From: an uncultured Dehalococcoidia bacterium
GTDB lineage: Bacteria; Chloroflexota; Dehalococcoidia; Lucifugimonadales; UBA1123
Direction: 5' to 3'
Assembly (NCBI GenBank): GCA_958296105.1
Contig: OY282441.1
Coordinates: forward strand, 3,048,773-3,112,772
DNA: 64,000 nucleotides
A model generated the notes under the pieces. It saw nothing but the letters and a program-made list of their open reading frames with translations, was not told where the DNA came from and searched no databases. Positions 10,456 to 20,685 of the stretch are shown piece by piece. The position numbers and the translations under genes are program-made. Each line of letters opens with the position of its first letter. The stretch's first letter is position 1.

Positions 10456-11181
10456 ATGTCCATGATTGTCGAACATACCGTTCACACCCTGCCCACAGAC
10501 GGGCGCCCAGACGACTGGTACCTGCCCGATCCCCCCAAGAAACTCAAGATGGATCAGTTCTTCTGCTTCCTGCTGCCGTCCGTGCCAAACACCATCTACC
10601 GACACTTCGCGCATCTCCCGGACTTCTTCATCGGCGCAGAAGGCTACCTCTGCTTCGACCCCCGAAGACTGGATGGGAGACTGGTTCCGGACCTGATGAT
10701 CGCCTTCGGAGTCGATCGACATGCCATTCGCGCCCGTCGAGGGTACGTCATCAGCGACGTGGGAAAGCCTCCCGACTTCGTGTTGGAAGTGGCGTCGAAG
10801 TGGACGGCGCGGGCTGACTACACCTACAAGATGGACAGGTACGCTGAGTTCGAGGTGCCCGAGTACTGGCTGTTCGACTACACCGGCGGCCTGTATCACG
10901 GCGCGCCGCTGGCGGGATACCTGCTGGCGCATGGCGAGTACGAGCCTATACGGATGACGACCGAGCCGGACGGCATGGTATGGGGACGCAGCCCCGCGCT
11001 GGGCTTGGATCTGTGCTGGGATCAGGGAGTATTGCGCCTGTACGACCCCGTTGCCAGAGAGTACCTCCGCAATCCGGACGAGCTGGAAGACGAGCTAAAC
11101 GCCGAACGCGACGCCCGCATAGCCGCCGAAGCCAGAATCCGCCAGCTCAAGGAAGTTCTGCGCCAGATGTCAGCGGAGTAG
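10456..11181 (+). CDS. Uma2 family (DUF820) endonuclease-like protein
   Basis: A 241-aa protein of the PD-(D/E)XK-like Uma2 family. The core reads RLVPDLMIAF (about residue 80), then DFVLEVASKWTARADYTYKMDRYAEFEVPEYW in pieces: the E-x-x-S-K element and the D...K...Y pattern are family landmarks. A charged helical tail (residues 215-241) follows. Uma2 proteins are abundant in cyanobacteria and Chloroflexota and their biological role is not established. The ATG at 10456 is used; an alternative Met lies two codons in. No -10/-35 pair stands out in the 123-base gap after nadE. Confidence 0.8.
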   Translation: MSMIVEHTVHTLPTDGRPDDWYLPDPPKKLKMDQFFCFLLPSVPNTIYRHFAHLPDFFIGAEGYLCFDPRRLDGRLVPDLMIAFGVDRHAIRARRGYVISDVGKPPDFVLEVASKWTARADYTYKMDRYAEFEVPEYWLFDYTGGLYHGAPLAGYLLAHGEYEPIRMTTEPDGMVWGRSPALGLDLCWDQGVLRLYDPVAREYLRNPDELEDELNAERDARIAAEARIRQLKEVLRQMSAE

Positions 11182-11925: not shown

Positions 11926-12013
11926 GCCGTTCCCTCCGAATTCGCTATGCCGACCTGTATGATATTACCGACTGGCGTCTGCTGGCTAGTGGCTGACGCC
12001 GCCCCGCCGCATC

Positions 12014-12101
12014 GAACGGGATGCGCGCCTGTACGCGATTGTTATAGAATCACGCCATCATACGCGCATACGCGATAGATAATAGAGGCGCGGATATGGC
12101 G
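12014..12101 (+). promoter_or_regulatory. Duplicated promoter/leader of the first PLD-like gene
   Basis: About 85 bases ahead of the first PLD-like ATG, including gcgcctgtacgcgattgt, a TATAGAAT -10-like box and atacgcgatagataatagagg with the ribosome-binding site, are repeated almost perfectly at 13490-13577 ahead of the second paralogue (1476-base offset). Preservation of the whole leader in both copies suggests that both genes are expressed the same way. Confidence 0.6.
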
Positions 12102-13397
12102 CAATTCCTAAGAAGAAATGGTTGCTCTCATCATATAGATGAGATAGTGCATCGCGCCAAAGAAAAAGTCTGGCTGATAAGCCCGTTCATCAAAATCGCC
12201 GACCATCTCAAGGAGCTGCTGCAAAGTAAAGACAGAGACCGAATAGACATGCGGCTGGTTTACGGCAAGAGCGAGTTGCGCGAGGGTGAGCGCGAATGGC
12301 TGAAGTCGCTGGAGTCCCTGCGGATCTTCTACCGCGAGAACCTTCACGCCAAGTGCTACATGAACGAGGATGTGGCGCTCATCACCTCCATGAATCTCTA
12401 CGAATTCTCGCAAATCCACAACGACGAGTGGGGCATACTCGTATCGAGACACGAGGACGAAGAACTCTATCAGGATATTCTCGATGAAGCCAACCTCATC
12501 TTCCAAAACAGCAAGCCTGAGTCCAGCCCGAAAGAGTCCGCCGTAGATTCGCAATCCGCCAGCGCCCCCGCCGCGCAAACAGAAACCGCCGAGCGCGAGC
12601 CTTCGCTTCCAAAAACGGGCTTCTGCATAAGAGACGGCGAGCCTATCGAATTCGACGTAGTCAAGCCTTACTGTGACGAGTGTTTCAGGGTCTGGAACAG
12701 GCACAAGAACCGAGAATACGTAGAAGAGATGTGCCACTCGTGCGGGATAGAGGAACCGGCTACGATGGACCGTCCTCTGTGCCTCGACTGCTGTAACGTC
12801 GAACTGCTTGCCGCCAGCGATTTGCAATTCGCAATAGAGCAAACGCCCAGCGCCCCCGCCGCGCAAACAGAAACCGCCGAGCGCGAGCCTTCGCTTCCAG
12901 AGACTGGCGTCTGCATAAGAGACGGTGAGCCTATCGGATTCGACATACTCAAGCCTTACTGCGTCAACTGTTTCATGGTCTGGAACATGTACAAGAACCG
13001 CGAATACGAAGAAAACTTGTGCCACTCGTGCGGACGTGATTGGGAAACAGGCATAAACCGCCCTCTGTGCCACGACTGCTATCGGAAGTATGCCGGGCTT
13101 CTTGTCGCTCGCGGCCATGGACGTCGACAGCCGGAGATAGTCTTCTGCATAAGAGACGGCGAGTTTATTGAATTCGACGTATTCAAGCCTTACTGCGACA
13201 AGTGTTTTAGGAGTTGGAACAGGTGTAAGAACCGCGGATACGAAGAAAATATGTGCCACGTGTGCGGGCGAGAGGGTACATTTACGATGGACTTTCCCGT
13301 ATGCCTCTATTGCTTACTGAATGTCGAATACATGGCGTCCTTTCAAGTCCTATGGGATAACTCCCTGTTGTTACGCGCTTACTACGCGCTCACATAG
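12096..13397 (+). CDS. Phospholipase D-like protein with three C-terminal Cys-rich (zinc-ribbon-like) repeats
   Basis: A 433-aa protein. Residues 1-135 form one PLD-type domain: VWLISPFIK (25-33), NLHAKCYMNE (83-91) and ITSMNLYEFS (96-105). The HxK motif is present, but the usual Asp four residues after the Lys is Glu, as I recall for this subfamily. A Pro/Ala/Thr-rich linker leads to three modules at about 175-236, 271-330 and 349-410, each CIRDGE...KPYC..C...W...KNR.Y...MCH.CG...RP.C..C. The family's usual CxxC knuckle is CIRD here, so the second Cys is lost. Likely a cytoplasmic zinc-binding nuclease-like or nucleic-acid-binding protein; role unknown. Confidence 0.75.
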   Translation: MAQFLRRNGCSHHIDEIVHRAKEKVWLISPFIKIADHLKELLQSKDRDRIDMRLVYGKSELREGEREWLKSLESLRIFYRENLHAKCYMNEDVALITSMNLYEFSQIHNDEWGILVSRHEDEELYQDILDEANLIFQNSKPESSPKESAVDSQSASAPAAQTETAEREPSLPKTGFCIRDGEPIEFDVVKPYCDECFRVWNRHKNREYVEEMCHSCGIEEPATMDRPLCLDCCNVELLAASDLQFAIEQTPSAPAAQTETAEREPSLPETGVCIRDGEPIGFDILKPYCVNCFMVWNMYKNREYEENLCHSCGRDWETGINRPLCHDCYRKYAGLLVARGHGRRQPEIVFCIRDGEFIEFDVFKPYCDKCFRSWNRCKNRGYEENMCHVCGREGTFTMDFPVCLYCLLNVEYMASFQVLWDNSLLLRAYYALT

Positions 13398-13489
13398 AGG
13401 ATAACTACCTGACGTTACGCGCTCGGATACCTTGGACCTTCGGGGATGACGGCGATCTTAGGGAGTGCTGACATTTCGAGCTTGCGATT

Positions 13490-13577
13490 GAACGGGATGC
13501 GCGCCTGTACGCGATTGTAGTAGAATCACGCCATCATACGCGCATACGCGATAGATAATAGAGGCGTGGATATGGTG
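13490..13577 (+). promoter_or_regulatory. Second copy of the PLD-gene promoter/leader
   Basis: Near-identical copy of 12014-12101, with TAGAAT and the AGAGG ribosome-binding site directly before the paralogue. The 13398-13489 interval between the first gene's stop and this leader shows nothing recognisable apart from short repeats of the string 'ataactac/ctgttacgcgct'. Confidence 0.55.
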
Positions 13578-14585
13578 GAATTCCTAAACAGGTCAGGATG
13601 CTCCTACCAAATAGAGGAGATGGCGCGCCAAGCCAACGACAAACTTTGGCTGATAAGCCCGTTCATCAAAATCACCGACTCCCTCAAGGAGTTGCTGGAA
13701 GACAAAGACAGAGACCGCATAGACATGCGGCTGGTCTACGGCAAGAGCGAGCTGCGCGATGACGAGCGCGAGTGGCTAAGGTCACTGGAGTCCCTGCGGA
13801 TCTTCTACCGCGAGAACCTTCACGCCAAGTGCTACATGAACGAGGATGCAGCGCTCATCACCTCCATGAATCTCTACGAATTCTCGCAAATTCACAACGA
13901 CGAGTGGGGCATACTCGTATCGAGACGCGAGGACGAAGAACTCTATCAGAATATTTATGAGGAAGCCCGCCGCATCTTCCGAAGAAGCGAGCCTCAATAT
14001 GCACCGAAAGAATCCGCCGTCGATTTGCAATCGGCAAGAGAGCAAACGTCCAGCGCACCCGCAGCGCAAACGAAAACCGCCGAACGCGCGAAAAAGCGAA
14101 CCGCCAAGCGCAAGCTGTCGCTTCCGGAGACGGGCGTCTGTATAAGAGACGGCGAGCCTATCGGATTCGACGTACTCAAGCCTTACTGCAATAAGTGTTT
14201 CAGGAGTTGGAACAGGTACAAGAACCGCGAATACGAAGAAGAGATGTGCCACGTGTGCGGGCGTGATTGGAAAATAGCAGCCAAAGACCGCCCTCTGTGC
14301 CTCGACTGCTATCGGAAGTATGCCGGGCTTCTTGTCGCTCAAGGCCATGGACGTCGACAGCCGGAGACGGGCGTCTGCATAAGAGACGGCGAGCCTATCG
14401 GATTCGACGTACTCAAGCCTTACTGCAATAAGTGTTTCAGGAGTTGGAACAGGTACAAGAACCGCGAATACGAAGAAAATATGTGCCACATGTGCGGGCG
14501 AGAGGGTCCATTTAGGATGGATCGTCCCGTATGTATCTATTGCATCCTGAATGTCGAATACATGGCATTCTCTCGAGAGTCCTAG
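13572..14585 (+). CDS. Phospholipase D-like protein with two C-terminal Cys-rich repeats (tandem paralogue)
   Basis: A 337-aa paralogue of the preceding gene, very similar across the PLD domain (VRLY/HAKCYMNED/TSMNLYEFS region) and the Cys modules but with two modules instead of three, at roughly residues 195-260 and 278-335, and a Lys/Arg-rich linker. I start it at the ATG at 13572 because this aligns with the first paralogue and keeps AGAGG at the same distance; a GTG two codons upstream is possible. The two modules here are nearly identical to each other, indicating recent internal duplication. Same uncertain function as its neighbour. Confidence 0.75.
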   Translation: MVEFLNRSGCSYQIEEMARQANDKLWLISPFIKITDSLKELLEDKDRDRIDMRLVYGKSELRDDEREWLRSLESLRIFYRENLHAKCYMNEDAALITSMNLYEFSQIHNDEWGILVSRREDEELYQNIYEEARRIFRRSEPQYAPKESAVDLQSAREQTSSAPAAQTKTAERAKKRTAKRKLSLPETGVCIRDGEPIGFDVLKPYCNKCFRSWNRYKNREYEEEMCHVCGRDWKIAAKDRPLCLDCYRKYAGLLVAQGHGRRQPETGVCIRDGEPIGFDVLKPYCNKCFRSWNRYKNREYEENMCHMCGREGPFRMDRPVCIYCILNVEYMAFSRES

Positions 14586-14766: not shown

Positions 14767-16326
14767 ATGGTTATCAGACGCAAGATAGACAGGCGCGCCC
14801 AGCTGCGCAGAATGCGCGAAGAGTCTCTGCTCGGCGGCGGGCAGCGGCGCATAGACGCCCAGCATCGGCGCGGCAAGCTCACCGCGCGCGAGCGCATCGC
14901 CACGCTCCTAGACGAGGGCAGCTTCGAGGAGCTGGACACCTTCGTAGTCCACCGCTCATCCGACTTCGGGCTGGACAGCCAGCGCTTCCTAGGCGACGCC
15001 GTCGTCACCGGCTACGGCAGCGTGGACGGACGCCGCGCGTTCGTCTACGCGCAGGATTTCACCGTGTTCGGCGGCTCCCTGTCCGAGGCGGTGGCGCAGA
15101 AGATATGCAAGGTCATGGACTTGGCTATGAGCGTCGGCGCGCCCGTAGTGGGGCTTATAGACTCCGGCGGCGCGCGCATTCAGGAAGGCGTGGACAGCCT
15201 CGGCGGCTACAGCTCCATATTCCACAAGAACGTTTGGGCGTCCGGCGTCGTTCCCCAGATATCCGTCATCCTCGGCCCCGCAGCCGGAGGCGCGACCTAC
15301 TCCCCAGCCCTCACCGACTTCATCTTCATGGCGTCCGGCATAGGCCAGATGTACATTACCGGGCCGGACGTCATCCGCTCCGTCACAGGCGAGAACGTGA
15401 GCCACGAGGATCTAGGCGGAGCGGCGGCGCACTCCGTCCGCAGCGGCGTAGCCCACTTCTCGGTCGCTGGCGAAGAGGCGTGCTTGGCGCAGGTGCGCCG
15501 TCTGCTCGGATTCCTCCCCCTCAACAACATGCAGGATCCGCCCCGACTCCATCTCGGCGACGACCCCGCCAGAAGCGACCCCGACCTGCCCCACGTCATA
15601 CCAGACGACCCCAGCCAGCCCTACGACATGCTGGAAGTCATAGGCCGCGTGGTGGACAGCGGCGACTTCATGCAGGTTCACCAGAACTTCGCGCAGAACA
15701 TCGCGGTGGGGTTCGCGCGCTTCGACGGGCGGCCCGTGGGAATCGTAGCCAACCAGCCCAGCCACATGGCAGGCGTGCTGGACATAGACGCATCCGTCAA
15801 GGCGGCGCGATTCGTCAGATTCTGCGACGCCTTCAACATCCCGCTCGTGACGTTCGTAGACGTCCCCGGCTTCATGCCAGGCTCCAATCAGGAGTACGGA
15901 GGCATCATCAGACACGGCGCGAAGCTCATCTTCGCCTACGCCGAAGCCACCGTTCCCAAGATAAGCCTCCTCACCCGCAAGGCATACGGCGGCGCGTACA
16001 TCGTGATGAGCAGCAAGAACCTGCATGGAGACGTCAACCTTGCGTGGCCCACCGGCGAAGTCGCAGTCATGGGCGCTGCCGGCGCGGTCAACATCATCCA
16101 CAGAAACGATATACGATCGGACGAAGACCCCGAAGCGAGGCGCGCCGAGCTTATAGCCGACTACGAAGAGCGGCTGATGAACCCATACGCCGCCGCCGCC
16201 CGAGGCATGATAGACGACATCATAGACCCGCTCGATACGCGCGCGAAGATCGTCAGGTCGCTCGAAATGCTCGAAAACAAGCGCGAGCGCCTCCCGCCCA
16301 AGAAGCACGGCAGCATACCGCTGTGA
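14767..16326 (+). CDS. Acyl-CoA carboxylase / methylmalonyl-CoA carboxyltransferase 12S-type subunit
   Basis: A 519-aa biotin-dependent carboxyltransferase of the PccB/MmdA/12S family. Landmarks are [23 protein letters not shown] (start, in part), [12 protein letters not shown] (about 95), [12 protein letters not shown] (acyl-CoA site, about 130-141), [17 protein letters not shown] (about 165-180), and in the second half [22 protein letters not shown] (biotin-side site) and [14 protein letters not shown]. It transfers carboxyl between biotin and an acyl-CoA such as propionyl-CoA. With the downstream 5S-plus-biotin protein it would make a transcarboxylase- or decarboxylase-like complex. No clear ribosome-binding site precedes the ATG. 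Confidence 0.88.
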
Positions 16327-16526
16327 ACGTCCGCGAGCCGGCGCGCGGCGAGCCGAGCGCGGAGATAGCGGCGGCGATAATAGCGGCGGTGGAAGCATTC
16401 TTGCAAGACGAGGCGGCGCAGCCGCAAGAGCCGACCACCACAATATCCGCGTGGCGCATGGCGGCGCGAGCCGGCGGCGAACGCGGCTTCGGATCCAGCC
16501 CCGCGTGGCGCGGACGGGATGAATGA
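16323..16526 (+). CDS. Small (67-aa) accessory protein of the carboxyltransferase operon, GTG start
   Basis: An open frame starting at a GTG that overlaps the 12S stop by four bases (GTGA), the classic translational-coupling arrangement. The protein reads [10 protein letters not shown], then [20 protein letters not shown] (residues 14-33), a Pro/Thr linker, then [10 protein letters not shown] and a Gly/Arg-rich tail. A short alanine-rich helix followed by a linker and a W...R-type tail resembles the small accessory subunits beside biotin-dependent carboxyltransferases/decarboxylases (OadG/MmdC-tail-like); this is resemblance, not proof. Residues 17-63 are duplicated at 17013-17153. Confidence 0.6.
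16373..16513 (+). repeat. 141-bp direct repeat, copy 1 (inside the 67-aa gene)
   Basis: Nearly identical, gap-free to 17013-17153 (offset 640 bases); I see only about two base differences. This copy lies within an open reading frame, the other is free of its start codon. Confidence 0.9.
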
Positions 16527-16539
16527 GGTAGGGATAGTA

Positions 16540-16926
16540 ATGAAGTGGATTCTAGTCGGCTTACTGGCAATTGTCGTTGTCGGTTTACTGTTTGGAGTGT
16601 TGCGGATTGTTGTATTTTCAGTCGATCTGGTCAGAGCGTTCTGCGATCTGATCAATGTGTTGAATGCCGCTTTGAGTATCGCAGACGCAACGAATTCGTC
16701 AATAGTAGAAGCGATTAATGAGTTCCTAGAATCGGTCACTGACGACATGATTGCGGCATTGCCGGAGAGTTGGCATAATCCGGTCACGCTGCTAATGAGC
16801 GGAGCGCAAGCTCTGGTCAGCGCGGTCGGTGGAATTCTGGGCGCAATAATCGATGTGCCTCAGGCGATACTGGATGCGCTGTTGGGCGCTCTTGGCAAAG
16901 TAGTGGCGCTCTGCGTGGCGCGCTAG
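16540..16926 (+). CDS. Small hypothetical membrane-anchored protein
   Basis: 128 aa starting MKWILVGLLAIVVVGLLFGV: an N-terminal transmembrane segment (residues 3-25), then mostly helical residues with hydrophobic stretches near the C-terminus (GGILGAIIDVPQAILDALLGA). GAGGTAGGG is placed about 8 bases upstream, which favours this ATG over the in-frame ATG at 16519 that overlaps the previous gene. Base composition is visibly AT-richer than its neighbours, so it is probably a recent arrival between the 67-aa gene and the truncated 5S start. No family recognised. Confidence 0.6.
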   Translation: MKWILVGLLAIVVVGLLFGVLRIVVFSVDLVRAFCDLINVLNAALSIADATNSSIVEAINEFLESVTDDMIAALPESWHNPVTLLMSGAQALVSAVGGILGAIIDVPQAILDALLGALGKVVALCVAR

Positions 16927-16931
16927 AAAAC

Positions 16932-16981
16932 ATGACCACCCCTCTAAAACTCGGCGACACCACCTTTAGGGACGCTCATCA
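16932..16981 (+). pseudogene. Truncated 5' end of the 5S carboxyltransferase gene
   Basis: About 50 bases that encode MTTPLKLGDTTFRDAHQ, matching the first 17 residues of the intact gene at 18847 (MTNPLKLSDTTFRDAHQ) with about seven base changes. It then breaks into unrelated sequence and the second 141-bp repeat. The frame stays open to 17225 but encodes repeat translation only. Confidence 0.8.
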
Positions 16982-17012
16982 GTGGGTTACTCCATTCTGG
17001 AGGCGGCGGATA

Positions 17013-17153
17013 GGCGATAATAGCGGCGGTGGAAGCATTCTTGCAAGACGAGGCGGCGCGGCGGCAAGAGCCGACCACCACAATATCCGCGTGGCGCATG
17101 GCGGCGCGAGCCGGCGGCGAACGCGGCTTCGGATCCAGCCCCGCGTGGCGCGG
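17013..17153 (+). repeat. 141-bp direct repeat, copy 2 (decapitated copy of the 67-aa gene)
   Basis: Duplicate of 16373-16513 without the GTG start or the original stop. Together with the truncated 5S start just upstream, it shows that the junction between the 67-aa gene and the 5S gene was duplicated in tandem. Confidence 0.9.
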
Positions 17154-17192
17154 GATCGACGGGATCGGCTGAATCGACTGACAGGCGAAGCG

Positions 17193-17198
17193 TACAAT
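17193..17198 (+). promoter_or_regulatory. Candidate -10 box of the coiled-coil nuclease-like gene
   Basis: TACAAT 29 bases before the ATG at 17227, in the short gap after the repeat. No strong -35 match at 17 bases. Confidence 0.3.
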
Positions 17199-17226
17199 CC
17201 AACCCCAAGACACGGCGGGCGCTAAC

Positions 17227-18831
17227 ATGCAAAAGACACTCACGACCACCGGCGGCGCGACCAACGGAACCAACGGCGCGACTTCGGACGGCGGCGGCGC
17301 GCTCATGGAGCTGTCCCTCCACATAGCCGACCCGGAGCTTTACGGCGTTCTCTCCGAGTATGGCGAGGGACGCGAGCGACACGACTTCGCAGTCTCCGCG
17401 CTCAAGATAGGCGCGATAGCCCTCCGTCAGGCGCAGGGCAGGATAGACGCCGAGCGCGTCCGCCAAGAGGGAGACCGCTTCATCGAAAACATGGGACACG
17501 CCCTGGAGCTGCATCAGCGCGGCGTGACCGAGAAGATCAACAGCTGCCTTAAAGACTACTTCGACCCCAGCGGCGGACAGTTCAGCCAGAGGGTCGAGCG
17601 GCTCGTCGAAAACGACGGCGAGATCGAACGAATCATCCGCGCTCAGATAGGCGGCAGCGGCTCCGAGCTAGTCAAAACCCTCGATGCCCACGTCGGCGCG
17701 ACCAGCCCGCTGATGTCCGCGCTCGACCCGAAGGCGTCCGACGGCATCATCCTCACGCTGACCAAGTCCACCCAGGACACCCTCGAGACCCAGCGCGAAA
17801 TCATACTCAAGGAGTTCTCGCTGGACAACGGAGATGGCGCGCTCAGGCGTCTGGTCGGCGAGCTGAAGGAGTCTCACGGCAACCTCAAAGATGCACTCGA
17901 CAACCGCATCGAAACGGTCACGGGCGAGTTCTCGCTGGACAAGAAAGACTCCGCCCTGTCGCGCTTGGTAAACAGCGTCGACGAGGCGCAGGCGCGAATC
18001 AGCAGCGAATTCTCGCTGGACGAGGAAGGCTCCGCGCTCGCCAGAATGAGAAAGCAGCTTCTGGACGAAATCGAAATACAGCGCCAAGCCAGCGAAAAGT
18101 TCCAAGCCGGCTTCTTGACGTGGCAGGGGGAGATGCTCGCCAAGCTCGCCGAAATGACCGCGCGCAAAGAGGAATCCGAACGCTCCACGCGGCACGGACT
18201 GGTTTTCGAGGACGCCGTTTTCGACTTCATCCGAGCGCGCGGCGAAAACGCGGGCGACATCGTAGAGCGCACCGGAAACACCACCGGGCTTCTGCGCGGA
18301 AGGCGCGTGGGCGACGTGGTGATAACGCTCGGCGCCGAACACGCCGCCGCCGGCGCCAAGATCGTAGTAGAGGCGAAGCAAGACGCATCCTACACACTCG
18401 CCAAAGCGCTCGCAGAGCTGGACGAAGCCCGCCGAAATAGAGGCGCGGGCGTGGGCTTGTTCGTCTTCTCCGCCAGATCCGCCGCCGCCGCCAATATCCC
18501 CACCTTCGGACGCTATGGCGATGACGTAGTGGTAGTCTGGGACGCCGAAGACCCCGCGAGCGACGTAGCCTTCGCCGCCGGCCTGTCGGTTGTCAGGGCA
18601 GTCTCCGTGCAGGCGAAGAGCGGCGCGAACGAGCTGGAAGCCGACTTCGAGGCGATCGACAAGGCGATTGCCGAGATAGAGCGCGAAGCCCGCAAGCTGG
18701 ACGACATAACCAAGTCCTCCCAAGCCATAGAAAACCACGCCGGCAAGATATTAAACCACGCGCGCATCATGCGAAACGGGCTTGGCAGGCAGGTCGGCAT
18801 ACTTAACCAGCAGATAGCGGCGATCCGCTAA
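17227..18831 (+). CDS. Coiled-coil protein with a PD-(D/E)XK nuclease-like core
   Basis: A 534-aa cytoplasmic protein. Residues 1-330 are mostly helical and hold three repeats of an EFSLD...SAL.R motif (near 197, 237 and 262). Residues 325-450 look like a nuclease fold: HGLVFEDAVFDFI, then VGDVVITLG and about 15 residues later IVVEAKQD, giving the D...ExK pattern of restriction-like enzymes, followed by LFVFSARSA. A second coiled coil ends the protein. Related proteins are usually annotated as hypothetical. It sits inside the carboxyltransferase operon as an apparent insertion with its own possible promoter. Confidence 0.6.
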   Translation: MQKTLTTTGGATNGTNGATSDGGGALMELSLHIADPELYGVLSEYGEGRERHDFAVSALKIGAIALRQAQGRIDAERVRQEGDRFIENMGHALELHQRGVTEKINSCLKDYFDPSGGQFSQRVERLVENDGEIERIIRAQIGGSGSELVKTLDAHVGATSPLMSALDPKASDGIILTLTKSTQDTLETQREIILKEFSLDNGDGALRRLVGELKESHGNLKDALDNRIETVTGEFSLDKKDSALSRLVNSVDEAQARISSEFSLDEEGSALARMRKQLLDEIEIQRQASEKFQAGFLTWQGEMLAKLAEMTARKEESERSTRHGLVFEDAVFDFIRARGENAGDIVERTGNTTGLLRGRRVGDVVITLGAEHAAAGAKIVVEAKQDASYTLAKALAELDEARRNRGAGVGLFVFSARSAAAANIPTFGRYGDDVVVVWDAEDPASDVAFAAGLSVVRAVSVQAKSGANELEADFEAIDKAIAEIEREARKLDDITKSSQAIENHAGKILNHARIMRNGLGRQVGILNQQIAAIR

Positions 18832-18846
18832 CGCAGTCGAGATGAC

Positions 18847-20685
18847 ATGACCAATCCCCTAAAACTCAGCGACACCACCTTCAGAGACGCGCATCAGAGC
18901 CTGATGGCTACGCGCCTTCGCACAGAGGACATGGCGGCGCTGGCGGAGCGGATGGACTCTGTCGGCTTCCACTCTATGGAGGTGTGGGGCGGCGCGACTT
19001 TCGACGCCGCGACTCGCTTCCTCATGGAAGACCCTTGGGAGCGGCTCAGAACGCTCAAGAGCCTGCTGCCGAACACCCCCCTCTCCATGCTGCTGCGCGG
19101 ACAGTCGCTGGTCGGCTACCGCACCTACGCCGACGACGTGGTCGACGCATTCGTGGATCGCTCGGCAGAGAACGGCATAGACGTATTCAGAGTGTTCGAC
19201 GCCCTGAACTACGAGCCGAACCTCGAACGCGCGGCTTCGGCAGTCAAGCGCGCAGGCAGACACCTTCAGCTAACCATCTGCTACACCGTCACTGGCGAGG
19301 GGCGCATGGGCGGCCCCATATACAACCTCGACTACTACATGTCGAAGGCGCGCGCCCTGCGCGACATGGGCGCAGACAGCATCTGCATCAAGGACATGGG
19401 CGGCTTGCTCGCCCCATACGACGCCTACGATCTCGTCTCCGCCGTCAAGTCCGAGATCGACCTGCCCCTTCAGCTTCACTGCCACTACACCAGCGGCATG
19501 GCGTCCATGAGCGCGCTGAAGGCTGTCGAAGCCGGGCTGGACGTCTTGGACGTGTGCCTGGCCCCGCTCGCGCTCAGAACTTCCCAGCCGGCGGTCGAGC
19601 CTATCGCCGTGGCGCTCATGGGCGGCGAGCGCGACCCGGGCGTCGACATCGAAGCCATCCTCGACATAGGCGACGATCTGGAGGCAGTCCTCCCGAAGTA
19701 CGCCGAGCATATGCAGACCACACGCTCCGCGGTCATAGATGCCAGAGTGCTGAGCCACCAGATACCCGGCGGCATGGCGTCCAACATGACCTCCCAGCTC
19801 AGAGAAGCCGGAGCCATCGACCGCCTCGCAGAGGTGTTGGCAGAGATACCGAAGACACGCGCAGATCTCGGCTTCCCCCCGCTGGTGACGCCAATGAGCC
19901 AGATGGTCGGCGCGCAGGCGGTCAGCAACGTGCTGTTCGGACGCTACGCCTCCATGTCCGAACCCGTCAAGGAGTATCTCAGAGGCGGCTACGGCAAGCC
20001 CGTATCGCCGGTGAGCCAGGAGCTTGTAGACAAGCTGGCGGAAACGGACGGACAGGACGCTCCCCCCGCTCCCGATCGTCCGGGCGAGACGCTCGCCCCC
20101 GAGCTGGAAGCCGCCAGAGAAGCCGTATCCGATCTGACTTCCGACATAGACGACGCGCTCATCTACGCGCTCTACCCCCAGACAGGGGAGAGGTTCCTGC
20201 GGATAAAGCACGGCTTGGAGCGCCCCCCCGATCCTGCCGCCCCCAGCGCGCCCGCGCCCCAGCCTGAGCAAGCGCCCAGCGACGCGCCGCCCAGAAGCAC
20301 GCGCGCCCGCCGCTTCAACGTATTCGTGGGCGGCAGGTTCTTCGAGGTGGAAGTCGATCCGGTCGGAGGCCCTGCGCTCTCTGGCCCCCCGTCCCCGCCG
20401 TCCGCCCCTCCCCTCGCCCAAGCCGCCGCGCCGCCGAGCCGCGCCGCCGAGCCTGCGCAGGGTCAGGTCGCCGTCCCCGCGCCCATGCCCGGCATACTCG
20501 TCAGCTTGGCAGTCTCCGTTGGCGACGAAGTGAAGACGGGCGATCCGCTGCTCGTTCTCGAAGCCATGAAGATGCAGAACACCATCCCATCGCCCGCGGA
20601 TGGCGCGGTCGAGTCCCTCCCCGTGCCGCCCGGCGCGCAGGTGATGAGAGAGCAGACACTCGCCGTAATAAAGACCGAAGGCTAA
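18847..20685 (+). CDS. Carboxyltransferase 5S-type domain fused to a biotin carrier domain (pyruvate carboxylase B / oxaloacetate decarboxylase alpha-like)
   Basis: 612 aa. Residues 1-400 are the TIM-barrel carboxyltransferase: DTTFRDAHQS (9-18), the CIKDMGG motif with the Lys that becomes carboxylated (about 179-185) and the metal-binding HCHYTSG (about 210-216). After a long Pro/Ala linker, residues 540-612 are a biotinyl domain with EAMKMQN (Lys near 576). The protein moves carboxyl between pyruvate/oxaloacetate and biotin. With the 12S-like protein upstream this fits a transcarboxylase linking oxaloacetate and methylmalonyl-CoA, or a pyruvate carboxylase B subunit. IDH and MDH follow. Confidence 0.88.
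   Translation: MTNPLKLSDTTFRDAHQSLMATRLRTEDMAALAERMDSVGFHSMEVWGGATFDAATRFLMEDPWERLRTLKSLLPNTPLSMLLRGQSLVGYRTYADDVVDAFVDRSAENGIDVFRVFDALNYEPNLERAASAVKRAGRHLQLTICYTVTGEGRMGGPIYNLDYYMSKARALRDMGADSICIKDMGGLLAPYDAYDLVSAVKSEIDLPLQLHCHYTSGMASMSALKAVEAGLDVLDVCLAPLALRTSQPAVEPIAVALMGGERDPGVDIEAILDIGDDLEAVLPKYAEHMQTTRSAVIDARVLSHQIPGGMASNMTSQLREAGAIDRLAEVLAEIPKTRADLGFPPLVTPMSQMVGAQAVSNVLFGRYASMSEPVKEYLRGGYGKPVSPVSQELVDKLAETDGQDAPPAPDRPGETLAPELEAAREAVSDLTSDIDDALIYALYPQTGERFLRIKHGLERPPDPAAPSAPAPQPEQAPSDAPPRSTRARRFNVFVGGRFFEVEVDPVGGPALSGPPSPPSAPPLAQAAAPPSRAAEPAQGQVAVPAPMPGILVSLAVSVGDEVKTGDPLLVLEAMKMQNTIPSPADGAVESLPVPPGAQVMREQTLAVIKTEG

Follow-up and report, generated by a model that had tools for sequence, protein, structure and literature searches.

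The window, the whole 64,000-nucleotide stretch of DNA analysed in this study, contained two adjacent genes, P1 and P2, with the following features:

12012-12095, + strand: P1 leader, 80/84 identical to 13488-13571
12096-13397, + strand: P1, ORF of 433 aa; a PLD domain with a tail of three Cys modules
12096-12509, + strand: P1 PLD-like nuclease domain (HAKCYMNE...TSMN...NDE)
12618-12797, + strand: P1 module 1, the extra copy; its upstream linker recurs 288 bp on, before module 2
12906-13091, + strand: P1 module 2, by module profile
13143-13322, + strand: P1 module 3, by module profile
13488-13571, + strand: P2 leader, 80/84 identical to the P1 leader
13572-14585, + strand: P2, 337 aa from ATG 13572; a PLD domain with a tail of two Cys modules
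13572-13997, + strand: P2 PLD-like nuclease domain; its structure model resembles Nuc, NucT, SauUSI, TrmBL2, and BfiI
14133-14321, + strand: P2 module 1, by module profile
14370-14552, + strand: P2 module 2, by module profile; one base off module 1 across the first half

P1 and P2 were tandem paralogues with three and two Cys modules, as the earlier note had claimed, and their PLD domains were 78% identical. Each protein consisted of a PLD-like domain of ~140 aa, an Ala/Glu-rich linker, and the Cys modules. The ORF of P2 was listed from GTG 13566 (339 aa), and alignment with P1 moved the start to ATG 13572. A genome search found no further copy of either protein elsewhere in the genome. The DNA repeats of the pair were far above chance: 215 nt in five copies, a 300-nt pair at 88%, and a second 300-nt pair at 84%. 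Identity of the 84 bp preceding the two start codons was lost abruptly further upstream. This stretch had been described as a shared promoter leader. Since no sigma-70-like promoter above chance was found in it, the leader stands and the promoter is unsupported. The genome search found two copies of the leader, before P1 and P2 only, and a dispersed repeat was thus ruled out. The stop used by P2 was missing in P1, so the P1 C-terminus was extended. A 25-nt near-repeat was also observed at this end of P1 (window 13355-13423), where P1 runs on.

The PLD motif of the pair was HAKCYMNE, i.e., H-x-K-x4-E. The Glu in place of the catalytic Asp, which the earlier note had pointed out, was present and proved to be the family norm. 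Glu ended the motif in 144/148 PLD-family rows and Asp in 4/148 (155 rows, 148 with a readable full motif and 7 not readable). Since Glu is a family trait, it is no hint of lost catalysis, and that interpretation was ruled out. The set of HxK, SxN, and downstream Glu was present in both PLD domains, and H84, K86, E91, S98, N100, and E111 were invariant across 37/37 aligned rows. The invariant His, Lys, Ser, Asn, and Glu correspond to the catalytic residues of Nuc. The same H(X)K(X)4E motif is attributed to SauUSI, an active DNA-cutting nuclease, in passages of PMC7913695.

Structure prediction, as proposed earlier, supported a PLD fold for P2. The PLD part of the model had pLDDT mostly of 79-97. 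Comparison with solved structures gave Z scores of 16.5 for TrmBL2, 16.1 for NucT, 15.7 for TrmB, 15.1 for SauUSI, 14.9 for Nuc, 12.5 for BfiI, and 11.9 for NgoAVII R. This DALI-like comparison returned PLD folds only, and it barely covered the tail. TrmBL2, the best structural match, is a chromatin protein that binds DNA and contains a PLD-like domain; the fold alone is thus no proof of catalysis. The PLD profile and the module profile gave chance-level matches only against the sequences of solved structures. With Pfam PLDc_2, P1 and P2 scored 25.5 and 25.6 bits, just below the cut-off of 27, and the one-module relatives L103 and L079 exceeded it with 32.5 and 37.7 bits.

The dN/dS of the PLD domain between P1 and P2 was 0.43 (20 synonymous and 38 non-synonymous changes). 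Therefore, the proteins are constrained, though loosely. The uncorrected ratios of the paired second halves of the modules were 0.76-0.86; being below 1, they gave no sign of positive selection on the modules. Together, the two sets of ratios suggest that the constraint has been loosened. On the PLD tree, the pair lay on a long branch of 0.83 changes per column.

The modules were ~62 aa in length. Across the 3.18-Mb genome, the module profile matched exactly five times, each time within P1 or P2 (E 4e-30 to 2e-31). With moderate confidence, the module was predicted to consist of two successive units, each of two short strands followed by a helix, resembling treble clefs. The Cys pairs sat at the first turn and the helix start of each predicted unit, and the zinc modules of the P2 model had pLDDT of about 56-85.

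The first knuckle, zinc site 1, had been reported as CIRD rather than CxxC. This was confirmed in 5/5 window modules; the remaining seven Cys were kept in each, and CHxCG...CxxC was retained in every second half. CIRD was found in this genome alone among the modules read. Zinc-site residues were counted by hand from a fetched listing, with 55 modules outside this genome readable and three fragments unreadable. The second Cys of site 1 was Cys in 53/55, Arg in 2/55, and Asp in none. The fourth ligand was His in 7 and Asp in 5 of the 55 readable modules, and none of them had both positions replaced. Site 1 thus tolerates one non-Cys position, and at the fourth-ligand position Asp is found in nature. 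CIRD was therefore probably fixed before the five modules multiplied. The Asp of CIRD may still hold the putative zinc as the fourth ligand. A separate loss of the same Cys, CIRR for CIRC, was observed in relatives from G198 and G170 (L226:5519-6460 and L219).

The order of events was read from identities between modules. The second halves were more alike across genes (0.86 for P1 module 2 and P2 module 1; 0.88 for P1 module 3 and P2 module 2) than within genes (0.62 for P1 modules 2 and 3; 0.60 for P2 modules 1 and 2). The first halves of the two P2 modules were 0.94 identical, with one mismatch over about 117 bp, at offsets -15 to +101 around CIRD. The best reading of these patterns is that there were two modules at first, that the whole gene was duplicated with its leader, and that gene conversion in P2 then homogenised the first halves. 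A later tandem duplication would have given P1 its third module, because the linker upstream of P1 module 1 is repeated nearly unchanged 288 bp on.

The distribution of the module was patchy. Matches were found in 42/250 genomes of the window's order and in 15/400 genomes of an even draw of the phylum, the own genome included in both; three of the 15, at 22-23 bits, were probably spurious. Outside this genome, 57/58 module-bearing ORFs had one module and one had two. The 58 ORFs were counted by hand from fetched loci (a 59-row listing included P2, and P1 was added, giving 60 ORFs); they include fragments and leave out three weak matches (G153 twice, G169). The two modules of the exception (G102, L206:5324-6352) were nearly identical and about 5 aa apart, and are an independent duplication of the zinc tail. 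A Methylococcales PLD protein (L142:10001-11128) had three tails in a row, with a predicted winged-helix-like pattern of helices and strands, parallel to the expansion of the zinc tail. The active modular expansion proposed in the earlier note was thus supported: tandem duplication and gene conversion are visible in the DNA, and the G102 and L142 tails expanded independently. Module number, however, did not vary widely among relatives. The survey of relatives that had been called for gave a nearly constant module number, and the distribution was not housekeeping-like, since the module was patchy in the order and the PLD gene was absent in 7/7 same-family genomes searched.

The PLD domain was found with other tails. 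The genome collection contained 509 PLD relatives, and the best 80 of the 509 were kept. Four of these 80 carried the zinc module, from Latescibacteria (L079), Lysobacterales (L083), Thermoplasmatales (L103), and Methanosalsum (L139). Nearly all others of the 80 whose tails were printed had a winged-helix-like tail. A tree of 55 PLD domains, of hand-picked rows and with many forks lacking resolution, required only two changes between zinc and winged-helix tails, so swaps seem to have been few; distant, long-branched rows likewise bore the zinc module. Homologues of the PLD domain were also found in 7/50,697 phage records, all of Vibrio, in 617/72,556 plasmid records, 575 of these typed conjugative, and in 48 viral contigs. 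A search of phages, plasmids, and viral contigs with the L103 module found nothing, which is a weak test with one distant query. The plasmid and phage records seen were labelled "phospholipase D family protein", "hypothetical protein", or "DNA repair protein", and the PLD-plus-zinc family was not named in the titles and abstract starts of the open-access PMC literature searched.

The module was also found on proteins of other kinds. In the same-genus genome G003, it was fused behind a GIY-YIG domain (L156:1480-2037; PF01541 27.2 bits, cut-off 22.6). In G247, it stood at the end of a UvrD/helicase-IV-like protein of 959 aa (L207:2810-5686), after a Top1-type zinc ribbon; this protein matched PF00580 with E 3e-43 and NF008276 with E 6e-102, the latter below its 543-bit cut-off. 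Both non-PLD carriers are enzymes acting on nucleic acid. The putative zinc-binding unit of the tail probably serves as an exchangeable hold on DNA or RNA, because the same unit sits on other cutting and unwinding enzymes.

P1 and P2 were compared with known systems. PHROG 9329, a phage family with no function assigned, matched P1 1-167 with E 7.1e-52 and P2 3-185 with E 1.7e-58, covering the PLD part and part of the linker. The PLD proteins of Vibrio filamentous phages and conjugative plasmids had about 37-52% identity in the listed records, and the Vibrio forms read had a winged-helix-like tail at their end and lacked the zinc module of P1 and P2. BfiI and NgoAVII R are similar in plan, with a nuclease domain and a C-terminal nucleic-acid-binding part; for BfiI, this layout of PLD nuclease and C-terminal recognition domain is given in sections of PMC4081073. 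The C-terminal recognition domain of BfiI-type enzymes is B3-like, and they have partner methyltransferases; the tail of P1 and P2 was Cys-rich, repeated, and predicted to be treble-clef-like, and no methyltransferase partner was seen beside the pair. SauUSI shares the motif and the PLD fold with P1 and P2, but has an ATPase and an SRA domain, which they lack. DrmC of DISARM and DpdK had weak local similarity near the HxK motif. With the DrmC model NF038319, the pair scored 22.3 and 19.7 bits, far below the cut-off of 133; no DISARM or Dpd genes were noticed beside P1 and P2, and PADLOC gave no Drm match in the three window neighbour proteins tested. The Cys pairs of the module resembled Pfam DZR_2, the double zinc ribbon (cut-off 27), with which the two-module protein of G102 scored 26.2 bits and P2 10 bits; the pattern of the module, CxRC...PYC..C...W...N..Y.E..CHxCG...P.C..C, is longer and more conserved.

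The pair lay in 2.84 kb between a kinase-like gene and a carboxylase gene. In G001, of the same genus, these genes were adjacent with about 190 bp between them. In G002 and G003 they were on different contigs, and the local gene order is therefore variable. The PLD gene is considered accessory, because it was missing in the same-family genomes and the site was empty in G001; the simpler reading is that it was gained in this lineage. Other apparent insertions were observed nearby. A Uma2-family gene (window 10456-11181; PF05685, 50.5 bits) lay between the NAD synthase-like and kinase-like genes and looks inserted, because the G001 gap there is about 32 bp. The carboxylase gene cluster contained an insertion at 16325-18855, compared with about 245 bp in G001. 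Within it, 141 nt were repeated in direct orientation (99%) at 16373 and 17013, and a 58-nt copy (84%) of the gene start at 18847 lay at 16925; these repeats bracketed an ORF of 534 aa that weakly matched Mrr_cat.

The neighbours of the PLD gene were investigated in 74 genome loci. The commonest neighbour, found in 19/74 loci, mostly Comamonadaceae by title, was one conserved chromosomal gene, housekeeping-like; the next occurred in 6. In 6 loci (L086 and five others), the PLD gene was followed, mostly within about 7-26 bp, by a small ATPase gene, presumably zeta-toxin-like. No conserved defence partner was found across the 74 loci. P1 and P2 stood alone among genes of other kinds, as did the PLD gene in the five relatives viewed, and no defence island was noticed in the window or in these relatives. 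PADLOC families numbered 117 for the nearest four genes and 97 for the farthest four, with top counts of 3 and 3 (35/74 loci, 140 proteins on each side, E up to 1e-10, simple gene calls); L079 was the only zinc-module locus in this comparison. The difference is not clear and gives no support for defence.

The likely explanation is that P1 and P2 are PLD-superfamily nucleases that stand alone and bind nucleic acid with their tail. The pair probably encodes DNA- or RNA-cutting enzymes. By analogy with Nuc, BfiI, and SauUSI, the proteins would act as dimers, both chains contributing to the active site, and would cleave the backbone of the nucleic acid. The tail, an array of portable modules with predicted treble-clef-like folds, would most likely hold the enzyme on its substrate, and additional modules could raise avidity or shift target choice. 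Nucleic acid is preferred as the target because the tail is exchangeable and expandable and its zinc form occurs on another nuclease fold and a helicase. Treble clefs can also be protein-binding, which counts against this preference.

The likeliest use of such an enzyme would be the control of invading or mobile DNA, the weakest step of the explanation. In its narrower form, the pair would be a stand-alone antiphage or anti-plasmid restriction factor, with a tail array reading a feature of foreign nucleic acid; this is a tentative reading. The plasmid, phage, and viral homologues, the patchy distribution, and the empty site in G001 agree with it, and uses of PLD nucleases in defence are described in parts of PMC11442185 and PMC9142583. 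The absence of a noticed defence island, the PADLOC comparison, and the housekeeping-like neighbour count against it, and the phage- and plasmid-borne homologues could just as well serve counter-defence. A defence or sensing role, offered earlier as a possibility, remains plausible, with no conserved defence partner and no clear PADLOC enrichment near the gene.

It is rather unlikely that P1 and P2 are nucleases that process or repair the nucleic acids of their own cell and take no part in conflict. The helicase-IV-like and GIY-YIG carriers of the module have folds used in repair, and the conserved neighbour in 19/74 loci is consistent with such a role, but the sparse occurrence in the order, the lack of the PLD gene in the same family, and the homologues on filamentous phages and conjugative plasmids are not. 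It is improbable that the modules expanded by neutral drift as part of an insertion in decay, in which slippage and conversion multiply repeats with no functional gain. Raised dN/dS, the read-on end of P1, the Cys ligand lost in all window modules, and the long branch fit this, whereas both ORFs are open (433 and 337 codons), the PLD domain is under some constraint, and the other seven Cys are kept in every module. Least probable are DNA-binding regulators or chromatin proteins with the PLD fold as a mere dimer scaffold and a binding tail, which are suggested by the TrmBL2 and TrmB matches and by weak Pfam Regulator_TrmB matches in relatives, since a pure scaffold is not expected to retain the HxK...SxN...E set kept in all 37 aligned rows, nor the full motif read in 148/155.

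For the favoured nuclease reading, the second Cys of site 1 would have changed to Asp in this lineage before the modules multiplied. A bolder proposal is that the module, so far unnamed, is a swappable nucleic-acid reader that a GIY-YIG nuclease and a UvrD-type helicase have in common with PLD nucleases. Its copy number, as with the L142 tail, would be adjusted through tandem duplication and gene conversion, yielding a class of stand-alone nucleases whose recognition array can expand and in whose zinc site 1 Asp can stand in for Cys; this is regarded as unlikely on present evidence. The PLD family is poorly annotated, although conjugative plasmids and filamentous phages commonly carry it, and to describe P1 and P2 as PLD nucleases whose tail can be exchanged and is sometimes multiplied is more informative than the annotation. 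The natural variants with one, two, and three modules make the function of the PLD family testable.
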